Source: Patiria pectinifera
Taxonomy: Eukaryota; Echinodermata; Asteroidea; Valvatida; Asterinidae
Assembly (NCBI GenBank): GCA_029964075.1
Contig: CM057129.1
Span: forward strand, 27,519,430-27,583,429
Direction of reading: 5' to 3'
DNA length: 64,000 bases
The notes below the pieces were generated by a model, which ran no database searches, was not told the origin of the DNA, and was given only the letters and a program-made list of their open reading frames with translations. A program made the translations under genes and the position numbers. Position 1 is the first letter of the stretch. The number at the start of each line of letters is the position of its first letter. Positions 6,001-57,500 of this stretch are shown here, piece after piece.

Positions 6001-7613
6001 AGCATGGGCTTCTAATTTTGTTCGCCGGATTAGCCCATACGAACGGAGGACTTTATTTAAAAAAAAATTAAAAGGACTCAGTGCTCAAGTACCCTCGCAG
6101 TGCCACTGCGAGGGTACTTGAGCACTGAGTCCTTTTAACTTTTTTAAAAATAAATGATGAATAGAGATAAAATTGAAGGGCATTTAAGTAGCTTAGCGCT
6201 GTAGTAAGTGTTGGAAATTAGGGGTCTGAATTTACCTGGAATTGAAAAAATGTGTCCAACTGGCTACAGTAGTATGATTTTACATTATGTTAACAATAAC
6301 AGTAAGCAAAATGGGGCATGAAGAATAATTAACAGGGTTGTCTAAAAGATGCCAAGAAACCTTGTGGTTAAAACCTTCCATAATCTGGAACCTGGTTCCT
6401 GACATTCTTTTCCTTGAACTTTCAATTTCCCACAGATGAAGATGCCACAGTGAGTAAACTCCTAGACCTCTGCGTTGGACTCTTCCACAAGATGGTAGAC
6501 ACCTCCCAGCCCTTTCATCTCACACTGATAAGTGTGTGCTTCGCCAAGTTTCAATCGCAGAGCAGGGCAACTTCAGATATCACCAAATTCTTCTCGCCAA
6601 GATCTGTAAAGAAAGGTTGTTATGGCGATACATCCAACAATGATAACTTTACTGTAACAGAGGAGAGTTACATTGCGAAGCCTGAAGCCTGCTCATTAAC
6701 AGCCACTGATGTTCCATCTGCATCCGTAAGATACGACGGCAATTTACACAATTTGAGTGAAAGCGTCATTCCATCGAGTTCCAATGTTAAATTGGAGAAC
6801 AAGCTGCATCAGAGTGGTTGCAGCGATAACGATCGGCTTCCGCCTTCCCAAGCCAGCAGTTGCTCGGCACCTAAAGGTGGATCTAATAATAAAATTGGAG
6901 GAATCAGAAATTCTAACAGAGAAAATGATCAGTGTGCAGTAACCATGAGTGGCCATCCACCTTCATTAACCAAGACAGAGAACGAACAAGCAGTTAGCGA
7001 TGCTAGCATTTCGCCACGTAAAAGGCAGTCGTTCTTTGCCCAGAAATCAGAAACTGTAACTTCATCACAGATAAAAGGGACGGTGGATCGCAACACACGG
7101 GCAAGTGATAGAGACTGTCGACAAACTGCATACTCGACATCATCGGGGCACCAGCAAGTATCATTTGACAGTGCTAGTTCTAAAAAACCAAGTGACGAGC
7201 AGTTGCCTTTGACATCAGAGCATGCTGACGTCGCACCTGCTGTTGTACCTCCAAACGTCGACCCCTCGGTGTTTGCAGAACTACCTTCTGAACTGCAACA
7301 AGAATTAACAAATGAGTGGAGGAACATGCGACACGACAATTCCAAGCCCGGATCAACACGTACATCACAAGCATCTAGTGACTCTCAACACATCCAGCTT
7401 ACAGGCATTGACCAGTCTGTTTTTGAAGAGCTACCCCGGGATATACAGAGGGAGGTACTTGAGCAACAGAAACAGAAGAAACGAACACTGTCCAGTCACC
7501 CTCCTCAAAGTGAAAGAACGTTACACGCCAAAAGGCCAAGGACTGTGAAAACATCGCCGAACAAAGCCGCAGGAAAAAGTACAACTATCAAGGATTTCTT
7601 CCTCCGGAAATGA
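1..7613 (+). CDS. POLI: DNA polymerase iota (Y-family translesion polymerase), 5' end outside window
   Basis: Seven exons join in phase: 1-83, 672-824, 1428-1676, 3349-3527, 3978-4069, 4982-5112 and 6436-7613, giving 687 visible residues. All junctions are GT-AG. The first exon enters in the palm domain with CPDLVIVSGEDLTHYREMSY, close to vertebrate pol iota. Exon 2 has LVERLGFDENFIDV, which carries the conserved catalytic-site acidic residues of the DEN motif. Exon 3 has GLTSCAGVAHNKLLAKL, and exon 4 the helix-hairpin-helix thumb region. Exons 5-6 form the little-finger domain, ending in RESRQCGMP. The last exon holds the regulatory tail. The enzyme inserts nucleotides opposite DNA lesions in the nucleus and is recruited by PCNA and ubiquitin. 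The catalytic N-terminus and promoter are not in the window. Introns 3 and 5 hold TTAA-flanked repeats. Identification is firm because order, spacing and motifs all match POLI. Confidence 0.97.
354..417. repeat. 64-bp perfect palindrome
   Basis: The two 32-bp arms are exact reverse complements, centred between 385 and 386 (gataattatc at the centre), with no loop. It lies in the first visible POLI intron. The lack of any mismatch suggests a young hairpin element or an actively corrected structure. Confidence 0.9.
1696..2745. mobile_element. TTAA-flanked nonautonomous DNA transposon, family 1 copy A
   Basis: The element begins TTAACCCTAACTCCCT and ends in GGGAAGGTTAGGATTAA, so the termini are imperfect inverted repeats beside TTAA. 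Inside are many copies of a short word related to aatcctgcaaaatcctcca. The same termini and words recur at 4287-4694 and 27506-28498. TTAA targets with CCC termini suggest the piggyBac superfamily. Another element appears inserted at about 1835-2411, since a gtgtggattcg repeat occurs inverted at both its ends. It lies in a POLI intron. Confidence 0.65.
1835..2411. mobile_element. Inverted-repeat element nested in the TTAA family 1 copy
   Basis: The motif aaagtgtggattcg appears near 1836, 1876 and 1908. Its reverse complement, cgaatccacacttt, appears at about 1926-1939 and 2398-2411. The interior resembles nothing in the flanking family. I read this as a separate short-TIR element inserted into the older repeat; its superfamily is unknown. 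Confidence 0.45.
2775..3085. repeat. Dispersed repeat family Y, copy in POLI intron
   Basis: The segment shares ordered words such as ctagtcacc, cagctggcttatcaatcacc and aattccatcaaca with 23800-24118, 29893-30190 and, on the opposite strand, 41174-41458. No coding potential was seen. It is probably an old nonautonomous DNA transposon; the ends are approximate. Confidence 0.55.
4207..4262. repeat. Two-copy palindromic tandem repeat
   Basis: A unit of about 27 bp containing the self-complementary word aacaatattgtt is repeated twice, each followed by tgtaaacaa. It lies in a POLI intron directly before the TTAA family 1 copy B. Confidence 0.7.
4287..4694. mobile_element. TTAA family 1 copy B (short, with CTAA flanks)
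   Basis: This 408-bp copy shares the termini and the internal aatcctgcaaaatcct words of 1696-2745. Both flanks read CTAA instead of TTAA (4287-4290 and 4691-4694). This fits a duplicated variant target site. It is in the POLI intron before the 4982 exon. Confidence 0.6.
5213..5355. mobile_element. Short MITE with perfect 14-bp terminal inverted repeats
   Basis: The segment begins AATTGACCTATCGC and ends GCGATAGGTCAATT, an exact inverted pair about 143 bp apart. It has no coding capacity. It lies in the last POLI intron. Confidence 0.65.
5484..6010. mobile_element. Foldback-like element with separated inverted arms
   Basis: The left arm (about 5484-5660) contains gaggtggcaccagg and agtctccggtttctggtatg. 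The right arm (about 5945-6002) contains the reverse complements of both, in inverted order. The interior carries A-rich tracts. It occupies much of the last POLI intron; superfamily unknown. Confidence 0.5.
6052..6152. repeat. Near-perfect 101-bp hairpin with 1-nt loop
   Basis: The arms 6052-6102 and 6104-6152 are reverse complements around a single C at 6103 (core cgcagtgccactgcg). The inner 35 or so bases of each arm match exactly; the A/T-rich outer parts are imperfect. It adjoins the foldback-like element in the last POLI intron, about 280 bp before the terminal exon. Confidence 0.85.
6436..7613 (+). CDS. POLI: POLI terminal exon: end of little finger plus PCNA-, Rev1- and ubiquitin-binding tail
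   Basis: This single exon encodes 391 residues and the TGA stop. It starts with the end of the little-finger domain (FHLTLISVCFAKF). Next comes a PIP-box-like SDITKFF (about 6570-6599), at the position of the human PIP motif KKGLIDYY. RQSFFAQ (about 7024-7047) resembles the FF-type Rev1-interacting motif. Two ubiquitin-binding motifs (UBM) follow at about 7258-7320 and 7404-7466; each keeps the diagnostic Leu-Pro pair (FAELPSELQQEL and FEELPRDIQREV). The protein ends in TTIKDFFLRK, a second PIP-like motif at the extreme C-terminus. The segment between PIP and UBM1 is Ser/Thr-rich and probably disordered. The motif assignments follow known POLI biology; binding itself is inferred. Confidence 0.93.
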
Positions 7614-32872: not shown

Positions 32873-33061
32873 TCGGTCCAGTGACTGTCAGTGTTGTAGA
32901 GTCCATCACTAATGCACCACCAGTCTGATCACAAGTAAATCATCAATTTACAAGTCCAGTCACAAGTCACTGGGGATGAACAATAACAAAGGAATGTCTT
33001 TGTCACTCTTCATTTGAAGAGATTGTGACGACTTGAGATTGACCTGAGATGGAAATGTGAA

Positions 33062-33366
33062 GACTTGTGAGGACTTGTGATGGACTTGTGAGGACTTGTG
33101 ATGGACTTGTGATGGACTTGTGAGGACTTGTGATGGACTTGTGATGGACTTGTGAGGACTTGTGATGGACTTGCAATGGACTTGTGAGGACTTGTGATGG
33201 ACTTGTGATGGACTTGTGAGGACTTGTGATGGACTTGTGATGGACTTGTGAGGACTTGTGATGGACTTGTGATGGACTTGTGAGGACTTGTGATGGACTT
33301 GTGATGGACTTGTGAGGACTTGTGATGGACTTGTGAGGACTTGTGATGGACTTGTGATGGTCTTGA
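33062..33366. repeat. Minisatellite in the presumed FRMD 3' UTR
   Basis: About 28 copies of gacttgtgatg or gacttgtgag alternate, often as a 32-bp higher-order unit (10+11+11). Decayed units precede it from 33027. It starts about 190 nt after the FRMD stop codon. The open frame on the minus strand (HKSSQV-type repeats) follows from the repeat and is not a gene. Confidence 0.9.
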
Positions 33367-35463: not shown

Positions 35464-35912
35464 TTGTATTACATTGTATCACACTGTACTACATTGCATC
35501 ACACTGTATTACATTGTATCCCACTGTACTACATTGTATCGCACTGTACTACATTGTATGGCACTGTACTACATTGTATGGCACTGTACTACGGTACGTT
35601 GTATCCCACTGTACTACATTGTATCGCACTGTACTACATTGTATGGCACTGTACTACGGTACGTTGTATCACACTGTACTACATTGCATCACACTGTACT
35701 ACATTGTATCGCACTGTACTACATTGTATCGCACTGTACTACATTGCATCGCACTGTACTACATTGTATCGCACTGTACTACTTTGTATCGCACTGTACT
35801 ACATTGTATGGCACTGTACTACATTGTATCACACTGTACTACGGTACATTGTATCACACTGTACTACATTGCATCACACTAATCTATCACACTGTATTAC
35901 ATTGTATTTACT
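35464..35912. repeat. 20-bp minisatellite open in all three plus-strand frames
   Basis: The unit actgtactacattgtatcgc repeats about 21 times, with variants tcaca, tggca and an inserted ggtac. Because 20 is not a multiple of 3 and the unit makes no plus-strand stop in any frame, three long overlapping frames arise. The right flank (tacattgtatttactc, ccatgaaaccagtgct) resembles 46005-46140, so the array sits in a dispersed repeat. Confidence 0.9.
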
Positions 35913-45588: not shown

Positions 45589-48500
45589 TCATACCAGGGT
45601 GGTGGATCGGCCCATGTACTGATTCCTGTTCTGTGTCAGCATCTCCGTCACCGCCAACAGTTTCTTCAGACTCGGCTGTGGTAAAAACACAGACAAAAAC
45701 ATCAACATATTAAACTCCGGAAAGTCAAAAAAAGTGAGGAAATTCCAAGCTGCAGTATATATACAAAAGTGAATTTATGCTGCAAATACACAAATGACAG
45801 ATTGAGAACAAAAAAAAAGACAAATTCAATAACAAAGTGTTCCAAAGTGTTGATTTTGCTGCTGCGAGATAACGTTAAGGGAAGTACGACTGATCTAATT
45901 GTTAGCATTAATAATAGATTTGTTTTCATAAGATGAACACTCATCATTGTGACAGAAGTTTCATGACGTCATAATTGCTACGTCTCAACCAATTAGCACA
46001 TGTACTACATTGTATTACATTGTGTTTATTCACTGACAAATCAATGAAACAATAGAGTGCTCCAGTGGTTTCTGGCACTATAGGGAGTAATAGGCAGGGC
46101 TGTTTGGGGCGGTACAGTCACTAAAGGGTTAATTGTTACGTCAAACTGAGTGGCAGTGCAGTGAGTGGAAAATAATATATATATTTACTGAATTCCCAAG
46201 CATGGACTAAATCCCACTCCAAATGTTGCAAAATAAGGTTTCTTTTTTATATTTTTCCAACAAAAATATTTGAAAACAATCTTTGGGTTTTGTTCCGATT
46301 TGAGACGCTAATGTTCAAGTTACCTGAACTACACTGAGTTGTTGCAATTCCTTGAGGTGTGTAACATACAGTTGGTGCAGATGCTACTGCTTTATCTTGA
46401 CTTTGTGCCAATTGGGGACTCTGGTGTTCACTTTTCCTGAACTACACCGAGTTGTAATTCCTTGTTGTAAGTAACACACAGTTGGTACAGATGCTACTGC
46501 TTTATCTTGACTTTGTGCCAATTGGGGACTCTGGTGTTCACTTTTCCTGAACTACACTGAGTTGTTGCAATTCCTTGAGGTGTGTAACACGCAGTTGGTG
46601 CAGAGCTTCTGAACAACTACATGTATCTTTGGGCTCTGTGCCAATTTGAGACCCTAGTATTCACTTTACTTGAACTACACTGAGTTATAGCAATTCTTTG
46701 ATGAGCGTAACACATAGTTGGTGCGGAGCTACTGCTGCATCTTGCCTTTGTGCCTATTTAGGTCTGTAGTATTCACTTTACCTGAACTACACTGAGTTGT
46801 TGCAATTCCTTGAGGTGTGTAACACACAGTTGGTGCAAAGCTACTGCTGTATCTTTGCTTTGTGCCTATTTAGGTATGTGGTATTCGCTTCACCTGAACT
46901 ACACTGAGTTGTTGCAATTCCTTGAGGTGTGTAACACACAGTTGGTGCAAAGCTACTGCTGTATCTTGGCTTTGTGCCAATTTAGGACTGTAGTATTCAC
47001 TTCACCTGAACTACACTGAGTTGTTGCAATTCCTTGAGGTGTGTAACACACAGTTGGTGCAAAGCTACTGCTATATCTTGGCTTTGTGCACATTTAGGTC
47101 TGCAGTATTCACTTAACTTGAACTACACTGAGTTGTAGCAATTCCTTGAGGTGTGTAACACACAGTTGGTGCAAAGCTACTGCTGTATCTTGGCTTTGTG
47201 CACATTTAGGTCTGTAGTATTCACTTTACCTGAACTACACTGAGTTGTTGCAATTCCTTGAGGTGAGTAACACATAGTTGGTGCAAAGCTACTGCTGTAT
47301 CTTGGCTTTGTGCCCATTAAGGTCTGTAGTATTCACTTTACCTGAACTACAGTAAGTTGTTGCAATTCCTTGAGGTGTGTAACACATAGTTGGTGCAAAG
47401 CTACTACTATATCTTGGCTTTGTGCACATTTAGGTCTGTAGTATTCACTTTACTTGAACTACACTGAGTTATAGCAATTTTTTGATGAATGTAACACATA
47501 GTTGGTGCAAAGCTACTGCTGTATCTTGGCTTTGTGCACATTTAGGACTGAGGTATTCGCTTCACCTGAACTACACTGAGTTGTTGCAATTCCTTGAGGT
47601 GTGTAACACATAGTTGGTGCAAAGCTACTGCTGTATCTTGGCTTTGTGCCTATTTACATGTAAGTATAGTTGGACTCCCTATTATCGCGGCATCCCTATT
47701 ATCGCGGTATGGGAAATTTCTCTTTGTACAGTGTCAAAACTCCTTCAAGTGGCGATTTTTATCCAGTTCACCAGTCATCAAATATTTTCTACCGAAATGT
47801 ATAAAAAGGACGATTAAAAAATGTTTTGTCTTTCGATTTTAATAAATATTAACGTTTTCCAAAACTTGCAAAATTTTCCCTCATCGTGTCTGCTAAAAAG
47901 GTACCGTTTATATTTTAACATAAATCTTTAATTGCGCTCTGTCCATGAAAGTTCCATTGTCTGGTTCCCATTCTTCAGCTGCAAATGTAAAATGAAGTCG
48001 AACGACGATATTTGCAGCGCGAAATCGTAACAACTTTTACGGGATCAAAATAAGCACCGCGCGTTAGCGAAAATAAAACGGCACACCGTGTAAAGTGAAT
48101 GGCGCCCTCAATCGCCGATCAGTAGACTTGCCTCAGGGATTTGTGTTCTCCTTTCGGGGAAGGGCAGGGTCTTAAGAAATCATCCTGCAGACATTTTGTC
48201 TTTAATCTACTTGAACGTTACAGGGAAAATATCAGACTTTATTCAGGGGGTGTTTTGGTCAAAGATAAACTATGAACAAAAAAGTTGGGATCATTATAAA
48301 AACCACTTCCCGCATACCGCGATAATAGGGAGTCCACCTCCGTTCGCACACGCCGCGCAAGTCTATTTTCACAGGCATCGTACACGGAATAAACCACACC
48401 ACCCGTCAGATTTTTTTATATTAATTTAAAAAGGAAGAGTTATACAACACATAAGACAGGACAATTCTGGAAGGTTAGTGGGCAATCTCTATTCCTAACG

Positions 48501-51500
48501 AGAAACGTGATAAGTACCGCGATAATACGGCGTTCCATCCTATGTGGTATTCGCTTTACCTAACTACACTGAAATGTTGCAATTCCTTGAGGTGTGTAAC
48601 ACACAGTTGGTGCAAAGCTACTGCTATATCTTGGCTTTGTGCCTATTTAGGACTGAGGTATTCACTTTACCTGAACTACACTGAGTTGTTGCAATTCCTT
48701 GAGGTGAGTAACACACAGTTGGTGCAAAGCTACTGCTGTATCTTGGCTTTGTGCCTATTTAGGACTGAGGTATTCACTTTACCTGAACTACACTGAGTTG
48801 TTGCAATTCCTTGAGGTGAGTAACACACAGTTGGTGTGGAGCTACTGCTGTATCTTTGTTTTGTGCCTATTTACATGTAAGTATGTGGTATTCGCTTTAC
48901 CTGAACTACACTGAGTTGTTGCAATTCCTTGAGGTGTGTAACACACAGTTGGTGCGGAGCTACTGCTGTATCTTGGCTTTGTGCCTATTTACATGTAAGT
49001 ATGTGGTATTCGCTTTACCTGAACTACACTGAGTTGTTGCAATTCCTTGAGGTGTGTAACACACAGTTGGTGTGGAGCTACTGCTGTATCTTGGCTTTGT
49101 GCCTATTTACATGTAAGTATGTGGTATTCGCTTTACCTGAACTACACTGAGTTGTTGCAATTTTTTGAGGTGTGTAACACACAGTTGGTGCAAAGCTACT
49201 GCTGTATCTTGGCTTTGTGCCTATTTAGGTATGTGGTATTGGCTTCACCTGAACTACACTGAGTTGTTGCAATTCCTCGATGTGTGTAACACATAGTTGG
49301 TGCAAACCTACTGCTGTATCTTGGCTTTGTGCCTATTAAGGTATGTGGTATTGGCTTTACCTGAACTACACTGAGTTGTTGCAATTCCTTGATGTGAGTA
49401 ACACACAGTTGGTACAAAGCTACTGCTGTATCTTGGCTTTGTGCCTATTTAGGACTGAGGTATTTACTTTACCTGAACTACACTGAGTTGTTGCAATTCC
49501 TTGAGGTGTGTAACACACAGTTGGTGCAGGGCTGCTAGTTGCCTGGCTAGGTCTATGGGAGGTACTTCACTCGGTGGTGGGATTTCGCTGACAGTCTGTG
49601 CAGAAAGTGAGCAGTGAAGCCAGAACAAAAAGACAATTGAATTTGAATGTATTCTCTGGCTGCACGTGTCTGTTGGACGTAGATTCAGCAGCTTTCATTT
49701 GTTAAAACAAGAAATTCAGACAATTGCCCCTCACCAGGTTTGAATCTCACCCAAATTAATTTCTTTGTGCAACCTAACAGTGCAAAGTTGGTTTGTGTGG
49801 CTGTCTTTGGAGTGTAGCACTGTGCTGCAGTTGGATGAATGTGAGCATCAACTGATGTGTGAATGCATGAGTTCAACGAGAGTTACGGAGCTAGGAAAAC
49901 TCATGATTAACGCCTTTAAGCAAAGTGGCTCATTTCGGATCACTTTTGGCCAGGGAGGTGTAACAAAGCTTGCCGAACTGAAACCGTAAGTCTCATTTAG
50001 AACAATATTGATATTTAGTCAATCAGTCAGTAGGTGGCTCAGTCAGACAGAAGATGATTGGCTCAAATTAAAATTTAAATAAAATGTACATATTTCTTTG
50101 GAGGAGGGGGGGGGGGAGTTAAGAGAGAACGAGATCTGACGCTCTACAAAAAAATACTGCAAGTGAGACTTGCGTGATCTCCCTGGCATGCTGGCAGTTT
50201 TTATACAGTCAGTTAGTATGGATACGTGTCAGTGTCCCTAACCAAAATGGAAGACTTCTATTGTTTTAGCAATAGTGACCTTGACTTTTGACCTGTCGGC
50301 CCCAAAAGCAATAGGCTTCTTGATAAAACTACCAAGAGCAACCCACAAACCAAATTTGAAGTTCCTAAGTAAAGTATTTCTCAAGTTATCGCGTTGACAA
50401 GATTTCTATTGTTTTAGCAACAGTGACCTTGACCTTTGACCTGTCATCCCAATAGCAATAGGCTTCTTAAGACTATATACCAAGAACAATCCACAAACCA
50501 AATTTCAAGTTCCTAAATAAAGTATTTCTCAAGTTATCGTGCTGACAAGCGTTAACCTAACCAAAACATAACACACAGACAGACATACAGAGATACACAC
50601 AAAAGGAAAACGCTATCGCAATATCCCCCTCCAGCTTACAGCCAGGGGGATAATAAAAACCCTTTTAAAAGGATAATAGAAAACTGCTTACCGCTAATTC
50701 GTTGAGGAAGTGGCACATTCGCCCTTTGTTGATGACGATGAAAGGGTTGATGACCACCATGTAGGCCTCCTACAAATACAAACATACGTGATTGAGAACA
50801 TCATTGCTGTTAGTGACAATCACTTGTACATGTAGTGATCGTTAGTCCCCACTGTTCTATGCATGGACGACATGAGATCCAAAAACACATTATAAGTTAT
50901 AACCCATCCAATATGCAGAAAATGGAAAAGGGAGAATGTTTTTATGAGGAGCAAATGTAATTAAGTAACCACGCACAATGTGGGCGTGTTCATCTATTCA
51001 AACCGTGGACGAAAAAATCCAGAGAACAAAAGATAACAATATCGCACACGATTCCCAGCAAACGTCTGCGATTGAGGTCGTGTACAAAACATATGAGAGT
51101 CTTCCTAAAAAGTTAACAGTACAATCAAAAGAGGGACAATAGGACGTCCATGATCGACGGTGTGAACACGTTTGTATGCACTTACTTTGTAGTTAGCACC
51201 AAACTCCACCTGATTGGCCAGATTCTGTATCGCCTTGGCAACAATCATGAGAGTGCGACTTGCCATGGGTGAGGCAGCCTCTGCAAAAGAAATGTACAAA
51301 ATAAAACCCTTGGAACTGAGAACATCTGCTGAAAGTTGGGCCTTCACTTTTTTATCCCCAATGTTAAACCTTTTAGTTGGAAATTGGCAAAAAATGTAGA
51401 CTTCAGAGCTGTTTGAGAAAAGTGGATTTGTGTCTCAGTGTGTTTCAACTGCTTTTCATATTAAAAAAAAAACGAACAAACAAACAAAAAACATAACAAT

Positions 51501-54500
51501 CTTGTTTACTGAGGCATCTTTGCTTTGTTTCTGTGAGCAAGTTTTCAAATTTTGAAAGTCAAAAATCTGTAATTGACTTGTCTTCCGATATTTTGTGCAA
51601 AGCGTTTGTAGCCGAAAAAGGTGGACTATTTTGTACAGCGCCTCATCTTGTGTCACTTCAAAAACTGAGCAACATAACACATTACTCACGAAAACATGGA
51701 AAATCTTAGCTCTGTGCAAATTGCTTGATATATCTTTGCAAGAAACCTCAATTCGTAGGGTAATCAACTGAAGTTACAAAGGTAAATGTTCTTTGAATTT
51801 CTCTGCTGTAGGAATAAGAAACATTTGAATTGGTGTGGCTACCCGTACTTGTCTTACCTGACACAATGTTGAAGAGTCTCGGATTGAGTATTGCAGGACA
51901 AATAAGTCGTAGAAAGATGAACCCTCTGTGAAATGAAAAAAAAAATAAACAACAAAATTGATGGAACTTTTTGGCAAAATCTGTTGCCAGCCACGGCTTA
52001 CATTTAAGCCCTTGTGGCAGCCCATACAAAATGGCGTTCAATGTTTACAAACAAAAGAAAAGTCTATTCACATCAGGGTATTAATACTATGAATAGTCTG
52101 GTAAATTGCCAGATTGAATTGAAATTACCCGACTGCTCGTGCTGTGATGTTGGGATCATCTGGCCATTTCTGCTTCACATCTTGCTTCAGACACCAGCAC
52201 AGATACCTCAGAGCCCTGCGATGAATGAGTGGTGCAAATCCATGGGTTAATCACCAAGAGCATGTTATACTCATTTCAAAACACGGAAGGACGTGAAATT
52301 GCGTTCAATCATTTAGAGATGAATACTTATGAAAGGTAGAAACCTTTGTTATTTGATGAGCAATGGTCACCTAAGCCTAAGGGTCCTGTGTCAAGAGACA
52401 ATTTTACACAGCCAACTTGATCCAGGCAATATCTCAAAAAACTATGACAACCAAATTTTAATTTCTTGTGAGGAATTTCCATAAACTTGTGGGAAAAACG
52501 TATTTCACTCTTCGCAAGAGATCCTTTAGGTGTATTTGGTTGCCTCAAGGTTGCTTGTAAAAAAAATGCCTTGTTTGGCTGGGCTTTAGATACATACTGA
52601 CTACTTGACTTACGGAGGGCACATGCTAGCTGAGACGAATATGGACTCGATGATTTCCTTCAGGAACTCCAGCAGATACTGACAGTTCTCTGACACATCG
52701 TCGCCCTTCTCGACCTTCAGCGGGTTCAGCTGAGGAGACAAAAGTTTACAATAAGCCCCTGAGTCCTTAGTGTCCGGTTTTAGAACTGGTCAAGTTTGAC
52801 AAATGTCACATTCATGCCTAAAATGAAATTGAAAATTCATTTGCAGTTGAAATACCGAACTGGCTTCTTTTTTTTATGCAATCACAGCCATGGTTTAGTA
52901 GGGTTACAAAATTAAACCATACATGTACTTCAAGGCATGTAGGAGCATTTGCATTTATCCAAAAGTAACGTACCAAATTATTGCCTAAAAGCTTACTTGG
53001 ATTACAAATCATACTGGTACTGAACACCCTGTAAAATTATTCCATCTGGAAATGCAGTTAATTTCCAACGATCAGCAAATGGATTGTTTTTGGAAAAAAA
53101 TAAAGAGTGCTATAGACAAAATCGTGTGTTGTGATCAAAAGCCTGTGCATGTTTTTCCACTGTTTTCTCAATAGTGTTATATCCACTGAGCTGAAACTTC
53201 AACAGGTTAGGTTTGGAACATTGTTCTTTGGATTTTGAGTGGTGTAATTATTGGAAACGAACAAAACGCAGGAAAAGCAAATGATCCTACATGCCTTTGA
53301 TTATAACTTACAGCTTTATCATTGCAAGCACAAGAAAACCCACCTCACACGAATGCTTGGACTCCATGATCTTGATGATGACGTTGTGCAGTGCGTGCTG
53401 CACAAATTCCTGAGCTGTTATCTTCATGTACTTGTCCATCAGCGTTGTGGCCAATGTGTTGGACCGAAACAGCGTTGACCTCTCCTCTTCCTTTTCAATC
53501 TCCCTGCCGTTGAGTTTCTGCAGCAGCTCCACCTCTTTCTGCTGATGCCTGAAGATGTCCAGCAAGACGCTGGCGAGATGGGACCGGTCCTTACAGCAGG
53601 CATCTTCCAGGGCGTAGATGAAGTGATAGTCAATGTCACCCAACACCAACTGAAAGAGCAACAAGAAAAAGTCATTTCATACCCACTGGGAATACAAAAA
53701 AAAAGGGAATTTCATGACATCTACATGTACAGTTGCAGCTTGGGCCGTAGAATTTGAATATGATGTTTGCATGTACCCTTACAAACTTGCTTGATGTGAC
53801 TTAAAAAAAAATCGAGACATTGCTAATGATCCTATTGCCCGTTTAATTTATATTGTTCTGTGAAAGTCATCTGAAGATCTAGAACCATGGGGGGGGGGTT
53901 GAATTATAAGGGCTGGTCTTCGCAAATTTGCGAAGTTGGTAGGGGGGGTCTGTCTGGTCCTTAGTTGACATAAGGGGGTTATTTTTGACCATTTTTCCCT
54001 TAAATTTCACGAATCCATGGCAGTAAAGGGGACGAACAGACAACAGCATCAATTTACAAAAAGGTTGTCGTCCCTCTTCCTCTGGTTTTAATGAAATGAA
54101 AAAAAAAACTCTCTCTTACAGGTGCACCAGTGGTATTGATTGACATCCCACCCAAAGAAATGACCAAGCTGGGAGCAGGGAGATGGAATGTGAGTGGGCC
54201 GTGTATTTTTGGAAATTTGGGGTAAACAACAAAAGTATGTGACGACAATATGTTATCTGCAGTGAAAAACGACAAGATATCCCGTAACTGAGGGAGGGCT
54301 ACCATCCCTGCAGCAACATACCTCCTGAAGACTGTGGTATTCCTCCAGAGGCATGAGCGTCTCTTGAAGGAACTGGGCCCTGGTTCGTATCGAGCCCATC
54401 TCCCCCCGTCCCTGTGATGTCAGGGCAATCAGCTGATACCACTGGTCCACCACCACCCCGTTGGGTAACCTCTCCAGGAGTAGGGTGGTCCTGCAGAGGG

Positions 54501-57500
54501 GGATGGGCTTGGCTCGCTTGGCGCCGTTGAAGACGTCTATCGTGAAGGAGTCAATGTCGTCGGGGAAATCGCTGATTGGACATGAACAGACAAATGATTT
54601 AAGCCATTTTGACAGGACAAATACAAATGAATATGTGATGCAATCAGCTAAATGAGTCATTTGTCGGGAACTTTCATTTGGAGATTCAGGCCAAAATAGG
54701 ACCACTTCATCACATCACTTAATCTCATCTCTTGGTGTTCCGACTTCCATAATTTTTGAACAAAAGATGGTATCAGTATGCGGTTTTTACAGCAGTAATG
54801 CTCAGATTGTGCCCTTTTCAAATCTGTAAAAAAAAAAATTAACCAGGGTCGACAAACTGCTCATTTAGCTTGATCGCATCACATATATTGTTGGATGTCT
54901 CATTAAATGGTGTGTAAGTTTTGTATTGCTATAAAAATAACAATTGAAAAAGTCTATTTTGGGCAGTGAAGCTGGACAATAGCACGGGAGTAACTTTAAA
55001 GCAAATATTGAAGTGTTTTCAAGGGTGCAGCAGTGAAAGGGTTAAACATCATGATTCTTAGTAAATCCATGCACCAAGTCCCTACTCACTCAAAGACAAA
55101 CTCCTCGCTCCAGACAGGGTCCGGGGCCGGCTGGATGGGTGTGCGAGCCACCTTGATGTTGTTCAAGGAGATGACGCAGTAAGGATGCGAGATCTGCCGA
55201 GTAGGGATCTTGTGAGCCTCTAGGATGTGAAGACTGAGGCTCTTGAGCTGCTTGATGCCTGAGGTCTTGGCCCTAGTGGTCTGGGTCCAGCTGGCCTTAC
55301 TGCAGTGGGCGCGAAGGATCTGGGTCCATGTCTGTATGATGAGGAAAGAAAGGGAGTAGAAGGGTTTCCAGAAAGAGTATCACCATTATATCTAAGACCT
55401 GATTTTGAAGTGACGTCCCCGGTCAAACGTGAACACAAGACACAGAGAACTGACGCTGGCAAACTAGGAAACAATTCACAAATTTATTACATTCACAAGA
55501 TGTAACCAAAAACAGGATTCCTCGAGCCAATCCCTATTTTGATCTTGAGTTATTAACTTAGTAATTAAGTACAAATTGATTTATCAAATTCATCGGGAAT
55601 CTCAAATAAATATTTTCATACAACAACAATGAACAAACCAAGAAAGACAAATTTTGTAAATGGGTTAATATAGTACCTGAGCCAGTTGCGGTGTTTCTGC
55701 GTTCAGATAGAAGACTTCAAAATCACCCAGCGCCCGTACTACAATCTGAAAACAGTTGGGTCGATTGAAGAGGCTTTCATGGACCATGTAGACGGAGCAA
55801 AACTGGAGGTCAATCATACCCTTGGGCTTGGTTTGCTGCAGAATGCAGAGGAAAAGAGGACAGAAAATGTTATTTGCATTTGTGTATCATTGTTATATTG
55901 TCACAACATTTACATACCTGTACTTGTACAATTATCCTTATAGTGTAGGGCTAGACATTGTTATTGTTTGATACACGATAACTCGCCGCCGCGATAACCC
56001 ACCGCCACAAGAGGGCGCTGGCATGACCAACGAATATTACCCAAGAACCCGTCAGAACAGCGTCTAGGGAATCTGGTATTGGTTGTGTAATGCGCGCACC
56101 TGTTTGGCCTAATATATGCAGCGCGTAATTCAAAAAAATTAAAGTAGTTCCAAAGCAAACTCTCCAATTTCTTCCAGTGCAATAAAAGCTGCAGCATGAC
56201 TTTTGTGCAATTTCACTGGTCAGCTGTTTTGTTATGTGAAGTATGTGTAGGACTGAAAATGGACCGCAATTGCCTGCAGAAGTCACGCATGCGCACTGGT
56301 TTCCTCCCATTTTTTGGAGAAGATTTCAGCGGATTCCCTAGACATTGTTCTGACGGGTTCGTGGGTGATATTGGTTAGTTATGATAGTGCCTGGCCTCTC
56401 GCAGCAGCAGGTTATCACGGTGGCAGCTTATCGCATATCAAACAACAACAACGTCTAGCCCCATGACTATTATCCTTAAAGCGACCGTCACATGAATTTT
56501 ACAATGCAATAAATTTTGTGCAAATTTCCATTTCCCTGAAATGAATGCAAAATATGAGATTTTTAGTTAATCATTTTGAAAACTGGACTTTTTTATACAT
56601 TCAAAACATTCCATGTTTGTCCTGACAACTGGGGGCGCTGTTGCTGTGCTGCTTCACAGAGTTCAAGTTGTTGTTTTTTTAAATTGTGACTCCAAAAAAT
56701 TTGCTCATTGAAAACATTTGTGCATAAAATTTGCTCATATACTGTTGTGTACTGGCACAAGAATGAATTACCCAAAACAGAAAATTGATGACAGCAAACC
56801 AATAAAAAAATCTGGCAACTTTTGATGCTGAAGCATCTTTTAACACTTAAGTTTCTCCCTTGAATGCCATCACAGTTTTGTTGAAGAATTTGGATGAAAA
56901 CATGAAAAACACACAAATACCTTTGAAAATGGCAATATGACATTTAAGATACTGTGACACATCGGTGCATTTCAAAGATTACATTAAAATAATTTGAATA
57001 CATTAGGCCTTTAACATAAACCTCTTCCAACTACTAAGTCATTGATCCTTACCCTATCATGTTCAAAAAAGAGCAATTGCTGATCAGTACTGTTCAGGGA
57101 AAAGAAGTAGGTCTTCCACTTCTTGTGTTTGGAGCCTGGAAGAACAGAAAGAAAAACGGAGAGTTAGACTCTGCCAAATGGACGCCATGCACAAGTACCC
57201 CCTCAACGGTTAGAAAGGGAGAGTTGGGGAAGACCAATGGGAGGGACATCCAAAATGCACTGATGATGACGCCTGATGCCCGACGCTGGAACCACTGCAG
57301 GTGCGCTGTGTGCCCCTCCGACTAGGTCTCCCAAAAGTAGCAATAAAGCCCCATTTACTGTTCTTGCAGTGTTCAGAGAAAAGGCACAATCCAAAATATG
57401 AGTCCGTAGTTTGAAAAACTTCTCAACTTTTAGAGGGCAGCTTAATATGCTTTACACATCGCCATTCCATGGAAACTATCAAAGAATCCAGCTACCAGCT

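Follow-up and report, generated by a model that had tools for sequence, protein, structure and literature searches.

A probable mirage-type minisatellite that repeats the end of a RASA1 exon in the following intron

Minisatellites that straddle exon-intron boundaries have been described in amphioxus under the name of mirages, in Adh3, the globin genes BflGb6 and BflGb9, troponin C and PGBD5; in the excerpts of these reports used throughout this work (PMC3087553, PMC3902484), they are said not to interfere with splicing, and the one in Adh3 is somatically unstable. Two further phenomena are akin to them: internal tandem repeats in human segmental duplications that lie where exons and introns meet, which are linked to new splice sites and new introns (excerpt of PMC2812944), and the origin of new introns when AG/GT segments are duplicated in tandem (Rogers 1989; Zhuo 2007; Gao and Lynch 2009, as cited in the excerpt of PMC3087553). 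Here we describe an array in a stretch of 64,000 nucleotides (nt) of contig CM057129.1, hereafter the window, in which the end of the penultimate coding exon of the RASA1 gene is repeated in the intron that follows. In our assessment, this array is very likely a minisatellite of the mirage type, probably passive and without a function of its own.

RASA1 occupies the minus strand of the window, where ten exons running from 55331 down to 45586 were joined into one protein, with the stop codon at 45591-45589. The best match of this protein in the PDB is Ras GTPase-activating protein 1 (entry 9bz4, E-value 3e-142, query residues 25-476), in a chain that we take to be human, which bears out the gene assignment made in the initial annotation. 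The penultimate exon ends in the residues HQLCVTHLKELQQLSVVQ, and in the alignment with the 9bz4 chain the copied stretch falls at the C-terminus, in agreement with the earlier proposal that the exon is the source of the repeated units.

Examination of the intron following this exon reveals 20 units arranged head to tail, in line with the previous estimate of about twenty. Each consists of a 54-nt core corresponding to the end of the exon, a donor position and about 58 nt of intron (the spacer); the end of the exon itself is counted as unit 0. The starts of successive cores, in an array also analyzed with Tandem Repeats Finder (TRF), lie 110-123 base pairs (bp) apart, mostly 112 or 118, and a single gap of 993 bp marks the site of a DNA transposon between units 8 and 9. 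This interruption is a correction to the initial annotation, which described the tandem units. It had also counted at least five units identical to the exon over 54 nt, and the number is exactly five of 20 (u4, u5, u14, u15, u16). When 141 bases spanning the exon end were searched against the 613.5-megabase (Mb) assembly, at least 21 matches were returned, all of them in the exon and its array. The spacers are mosaic: that of unit 0 differs from unit 6 at one of 52 sites and from the neighboring unit 1 at seven, and the spacers linked to the five exon-identical cores differ from unit 0 at 4-11 of the 52 sites. Going by these differences, the spacer adjacent to the exon seems to take part in exchange within the array. 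Conversion that carries changes on into the protein, as the initial annotation suggested, would be a further and conjectural step. The transposon belongs to a family with 414 candidates in the genome; among the 40 that were scored, which include the RASA1 copy, the other copies are 88-97% identical, and two extra pieces are 92 and 94% identical. We take the TA on either side of it as a target duplication. Given that the transposon sits inside a unit, the array predates its insertion.

The donors of the intronic units are largely but not uniformly preserved, so that the earlier claim that most units keep a good donor holds with reservations: GT is kept in 18 of the 20 units, 13 fit CAG/GTRAR and nine equal the exon's own CAG/GTAAAG, but two have lost the GT and three more carry an A instead of the last G of the exon. 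The penultimate exon and the first donor, by contrast, are intact. We propose that the array began when a segment comprising the last 54 nt of the exon and about 58 nt of the adjoining intron was duplicated in tandem. Growth to twenty copies, and their reshuffling, would then be due to unequal exchange, slippage and short-tract conversion, with the transposon presumably jumping in later. As the 5' end still offers an intact coding exon with its acceptor and the first donor, normal splicing would run from this donor to the last exon, as is reported for the amphioxus mirages. The array would persist because of this intact 5' end and because the donors in the copies are accompanied by weak acceptors at best. 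Translation continued past the first donor ends at a stop after two codons; a decoy donor used now and then to extend the exon would thus cost the last 28 residues or lead to decay of the transcript.

Several observations weigh against a wholly passive array. Nine of the 20 units (u1-u7, u9, u16) have a YAG that would delimit an open cassette of 84 nt in phase with both neighboring exons, and the cores vary less than the spacers. For the latter comparison 19 intronic units were aligned over 54 core and 52 spacer sites, with the exclusion of unit 8, which is cut by the transposon. Measured against unit 0, the core is closer than the spacer in 17 of the 19 units, equally close in one and more distant in one; as this measure is biased by the exon itself being held fixed, the comparison of unit with unit is the fairer one. 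Pairwise diversity is 0.070 in the core versus 0.205 in the spacer over 20 rows including the exon (column-permutation p = 0.0001), and 0.059 versus 0.127 in units 1-16 (p = 0.012). Of 112 circular shifts, the true placement of the exon block comes out on top in all five subsets compared, and the 54-base window with the lowest variation begins at most one base from it. The contrast is partly due to one hypervariable stretch, without which the ratio of spacer to core diversity is 2.57 for all units and 1.73 for units 1-16. In simulations run at a few settings with rates of our own choosing, neutral arrays without involvement of the exon reached a benchmark ratio of at least 2.2 in none of 600 young samples and in 0-2.2% of correlated samples at equilibrium. 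Furthermore, the mean number of exon-identical units did not reach five in any simulated setting, the top mean being 2.4. Together, the contrast and the simulations indicate that a purely passive array with uniform mutation is not a full explanation. One way to account for the contrast is that the exon, held by selection, is the favored donor of short conversion tracts, which would reset the exon-derived halves of the units while the spacers drift. Consistent with this, low variation begins almost exactly at the exon block, exon-identical cores are found beside diverged spacers, and the unit 0 spacer is nearly that of unit 6. In the simulations, however, an exon acting as an equal donor reached the benchmark in 0 of 600 young samples, 0-1.5% of equilibrium samples and 0 of 60 with strong conversion, and a 20-fold preference for the exon as donor combined with strong conversion did so in 15% of 60. 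We consider this explanation possible but rather doubtful, and place no more trust in its wider form, in which exon-end minisatellites are recurrent in a genome that is probably that of an echinoderm and the constrained exon serves at RASA1 as the favored template, with coding and non-coding DNA evolving in concert. Alternatively, the exon-derived part of each copy could be under constraint of its own, for instance through splicing enhancers, or be less mutable, without conversion from the exon: a core accepting 0.4 of the mutations gave a median ratio of 2.32 and values of at least 2.2 in 57% of 60 simulations, and in 72% when the exon was also an equal donor. Both explanations have against them that seven other arrays of the genome lack such a contrast; their spacer/core ratios are 1.47, 1.97, 1.21, 0.66, 0.27, 0.76 and 0.68, none of them a significant excess, although these arrays were picked by their conserved donors and are therefore not a fair sample of old arrays. 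Their diversity was computed with the last unit of each array dropped and units more than 25 bases too short excluded, and the ratio of 0.27, from the C10 array (one-sided p = 0.979), lies in the direction opposite to that of RASA1. On balance, constraint or low mutability of the copies themselves appears unlikely. Core conservation as a general rule of exon-end arrays was rejected, being absent from these seven.

The remaining explanations concern splicing and the assembly. It is conceivable that the decoy donors are a selected device that binds U1 and tunes the production of a RASA1 form without the last 28 residues, as most donors keep GT, many are identical to that of the exon, and their use would give a defined truncation. 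However, the units differ more in the donor hexamer than in the exon-derived body (pairwise 0.134 versus 0.070), two donors are destroyed, and arrays of this kind recur in unrelated genes; we regard such a device as quite improbable. An even less probable proposition is that the units are cassette exons adding 28-residue repeats of the AQSQDTAVALHQLCVTHLKELQQLSVVQ type to the C-terminus of RASA1. A scan for YAG in the 56 nt preceding each intronic core and in its first 10 nt, leaving at least 30 nt, found 82 sites, 17 of which give a length divisible by three. Eleven of the 17 are open, namely the nine 84-nt segments (window 46782-49450) and two shorter ones in u19 (57 nt) and u20 (60 nt), and six contain a stop, which means that the in-frame choices are to be expected by chance. 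The 14 bases before the YAGs of the intronic cores include at most eight pyrimidines, with a mean of 4.8 (7-8 in the nine 84-nt segments and four in units 19 and 20), versus ten at the exon's own acceptor; cassette use of the units, as predicted from these tracts, is not favored because they are poorer than that of the true acceptor. In addition, the 19 distinct changes of the cores relative to the exon fall on codon positions 1, 2 and 3 in numbers of 8, 5 and 6, without bias, and protein-level selection on the copies is unsupported given this even spread. As for an assembly artefact, long tandem arrays are prone to error, but the units differ from each other, a transposon lies inside one of them, the contig is of chromosome size (29.8 Mb) and other genes contain comparable arrays; we give this explanation hardly any credence. 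We accordingly retain a probably passive mirage-type minisatellite as the favored reading of the RASA1 array.

A search of the genome for three consensus donors separated by gaps of 90-120 bases revealed a second array, in the gene for a dynein light intermediate chain (C13:22618516-22620100, 106-bp units). It contains 15 donors including the exon's own (CAG/GTAAGT) plus a last partial copy, and the exon sequence is unchanged in eight of 15 intronic cores; the exons flanking it join into one dynein light intermediate chain match (PF05783, E-value 7.6e-25). With degenerate donor patterns, the gap classes 54-84, 85-115 and 116-146 gave 209, 129 and 132 matches, versus 86, 67 and 46 for a reversed control. 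Among the matches listed for the 85-115 class we recognized 16 loci by inspection, of which 13 repeat about every 94-124 bp, whereas all 67 matches of the reversed-motif control fell into eight loci, six of which are repeats of 12, 23 or 35 bp. The 5' flanks of 20 donor arrays, which we chose mostly as one per family while passing over several dispersed repeat families, were then considered as possible exons, and peptides of 18 were compared with Pfam (that of L088 was too short, and the stretch taken for L083 lacked the start of the array). Six of the 18 exceeded the Pfam cut-offs, matching EGF, DNA polymerase alpha/epsilon subunit B, AAA, peptidase M41, ankyrin and dynein AAA_6; one more had an ankyrin match below the cut-off, and 11 had nothing above it, two of these with faint matches. 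The frame read back from the first donor exceeded the shuffled median in 18 of 19 arrays, singly at p <= 0.05 in seven of the 19. Distinct examples include: 1) the end of a dynein heavy chain P-loop exon (L087/L094, C19:33537300-33541200), which has 22 donors in 142-bp units and whose unit forms another cluster 0.28 Mb away, at C19:33.82M; 2) the end of an AAA-ATPase exon (L076, C22:10166300-10167700), repeated in 56-bp units; 3) array L085, which appears unrelated to an exon. A birth process specific to exons is not needed, as by a rough estimate about half of such donor-like motifs would be true donors anyway at this genome size. The corresponding search for acceptor arrays, with three copies of the pattern TTTNCAGG, gave 219 matches versus 176 in the reversed control, with no clear excess.

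The tektin exons of the genome bear on the relationships of the host. The best match of three of the four is the sea urchin entry 8SNB (203.5, 171.8 and 230.5 bits), followed by 9cpc (129.8 bits), the human entry 7ung (136.4) and the bovine entry 7rro (132.7); the fourth prefers Tektin-3 of 7rro (131.6 bits) over 8SNB (104.5), which in our reading means that 8SNB lacks the orthologue. Species are given for 8SNB, 7UNG and 7RRO as in the excerpt of PMC10973386, and the matches included no chain known to be from amphioxus or a hemichordate. On these tektins the host groups with sea urchin, is probably an echinoderm, and is less likely to be amphioxus. A search for GFP found no match, with no positive response from a control. 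The genomic matches listed all lie on contigs C1 to C22, which would fit the karyotype of a starfish. The amphioxus mirages in the excerpts of PMC3087553 and PMC3902484 were each time described in a small number of genes. In the present case a single assembly, from a host probably outside the cephalochordates, has them in RASA1, the dynein light intermediate chain gene and six further exon ends confirmed by Pfam; judged by sequence, the range of mirages probably extends beyond the cephalochordates. In the open-licence literature, judged by titles and the beginnings of abstracts, no arrays of exon ends were found for RASA1 or for any echinoderm. The initial annotation, which knew of no described case like this in RASA1, was too narrow: the kind has a name and recurs in other genes of the same genome. 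Such arrays could serve as natural tests of how splicing chooses the first among many equal donors, of intron gain from tandem duplications, and of the exchange of sequence between a coding exon and its own intronic copies.

The features of the RASA1 locus are collected in the table below. Another intron of the gene contains a two-copy repeat of 148 bp (50251-50549). Elsewhere in the window there are short-period tandem arrays at 33023-33365 and 35465-35880 (32 or 21 bp; 20 bp), and the plus strand at 6384-7613 encodes, in an open frame of 409 codons, a neighboring gene with UBM ubiquitin-binding motifs (PF14377).

Table. Positions in the window of the RASA1 exons, the array derived from the penultimate exon and the transposon inserted in it
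Feature	Position	Strand	Basis or remark
Upstream RASA1 exons (C2 and RasGAP parts)	50692..55331	-	served for gene identification
Penultimate coding exon of RASA1	49473..49595	-	123 nt, phase 0/0; splice sites, phase, PDB alignment
Array unit 0 (54 nt at the end of the penultimate exon)	49526-49473	-	
Proximal array, units 1-8, repeating every 112 or 118 bp	48541..49472	-	spacer of unit 8 cut by transposon
DNA transposon insertion, 874 bp, CTCCCTATTATCGCGG-type ends	47667..48540	-	TA on both sides
Distal array, units 9-20	46324..47666	-	units 17-20 with most diverged spacers; GT lost in units 18 and 19
Last coding exon of RASA1, PSLKKLLAVTEMLTQNRNQYMGRSTTLV then stop	45589..45675	-	splice sites, phase, PDB alignment

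Mutually exclusive exons of the Dscam type arise by tandem duplication of whole exons. The RASA1 array shares with them the repetition of exon sequence in an intron, but its unit copies the end of the exon only, without the exon's own acceptor. The array does not belong with tandem cassette exons of this type: the unit begins inside the exon, and fewer than half of the units offer an open in-frame 84-nt choice, with weak YAGs. The human boundary repeats are, like the RASA1 array, minisatellites at exon-intron boundaries; as given in the excerpt of PMC2812944, they average 30 bp in four copies, lie in recent primate paralogs and may permit alternative splicing, as opposed to a single gene with 20 units, most of them 112-118 bp long. 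With the AG/GT-segment duplications of the excerpt of PMC3087553 the array has in common that both are tandem internal duplications with splice signals, and hence raw material for introns; those duplications make new introns, whereas the possible acceptors of the RASA1 units are weak.

The closest likeness is to the amphioxus mirages, again as portrayed in the excerpts of PMC3087553 and PMC3902484: both consist of tandem repeats straddling an exon-intron boundary, both repeat a splice signal, and in both the array is joined to an intact exon. The unit sizes are comparable (60 and 108 bp in PGBD5 and 150-160 bp in the globin genes), and the splice signal is kept in many, though not all, of the RASA1 units. 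Amphioxus mirages evolve in concert within the cluster, with the edge units left out; in the RASA1 array the distal units 17-20 have diverged, but the spacer of unit 0, at the other edge, nearly matches that of unit 6. The copy number of 20 compares with six and three in the two haplotypes of BflGb6. Unlike the amphioxus mirages, the RASA1 array has a transposon inside it and an exon-derived half that is less variable than its spacer, and it belongs to a genome in which several further genes are affected.

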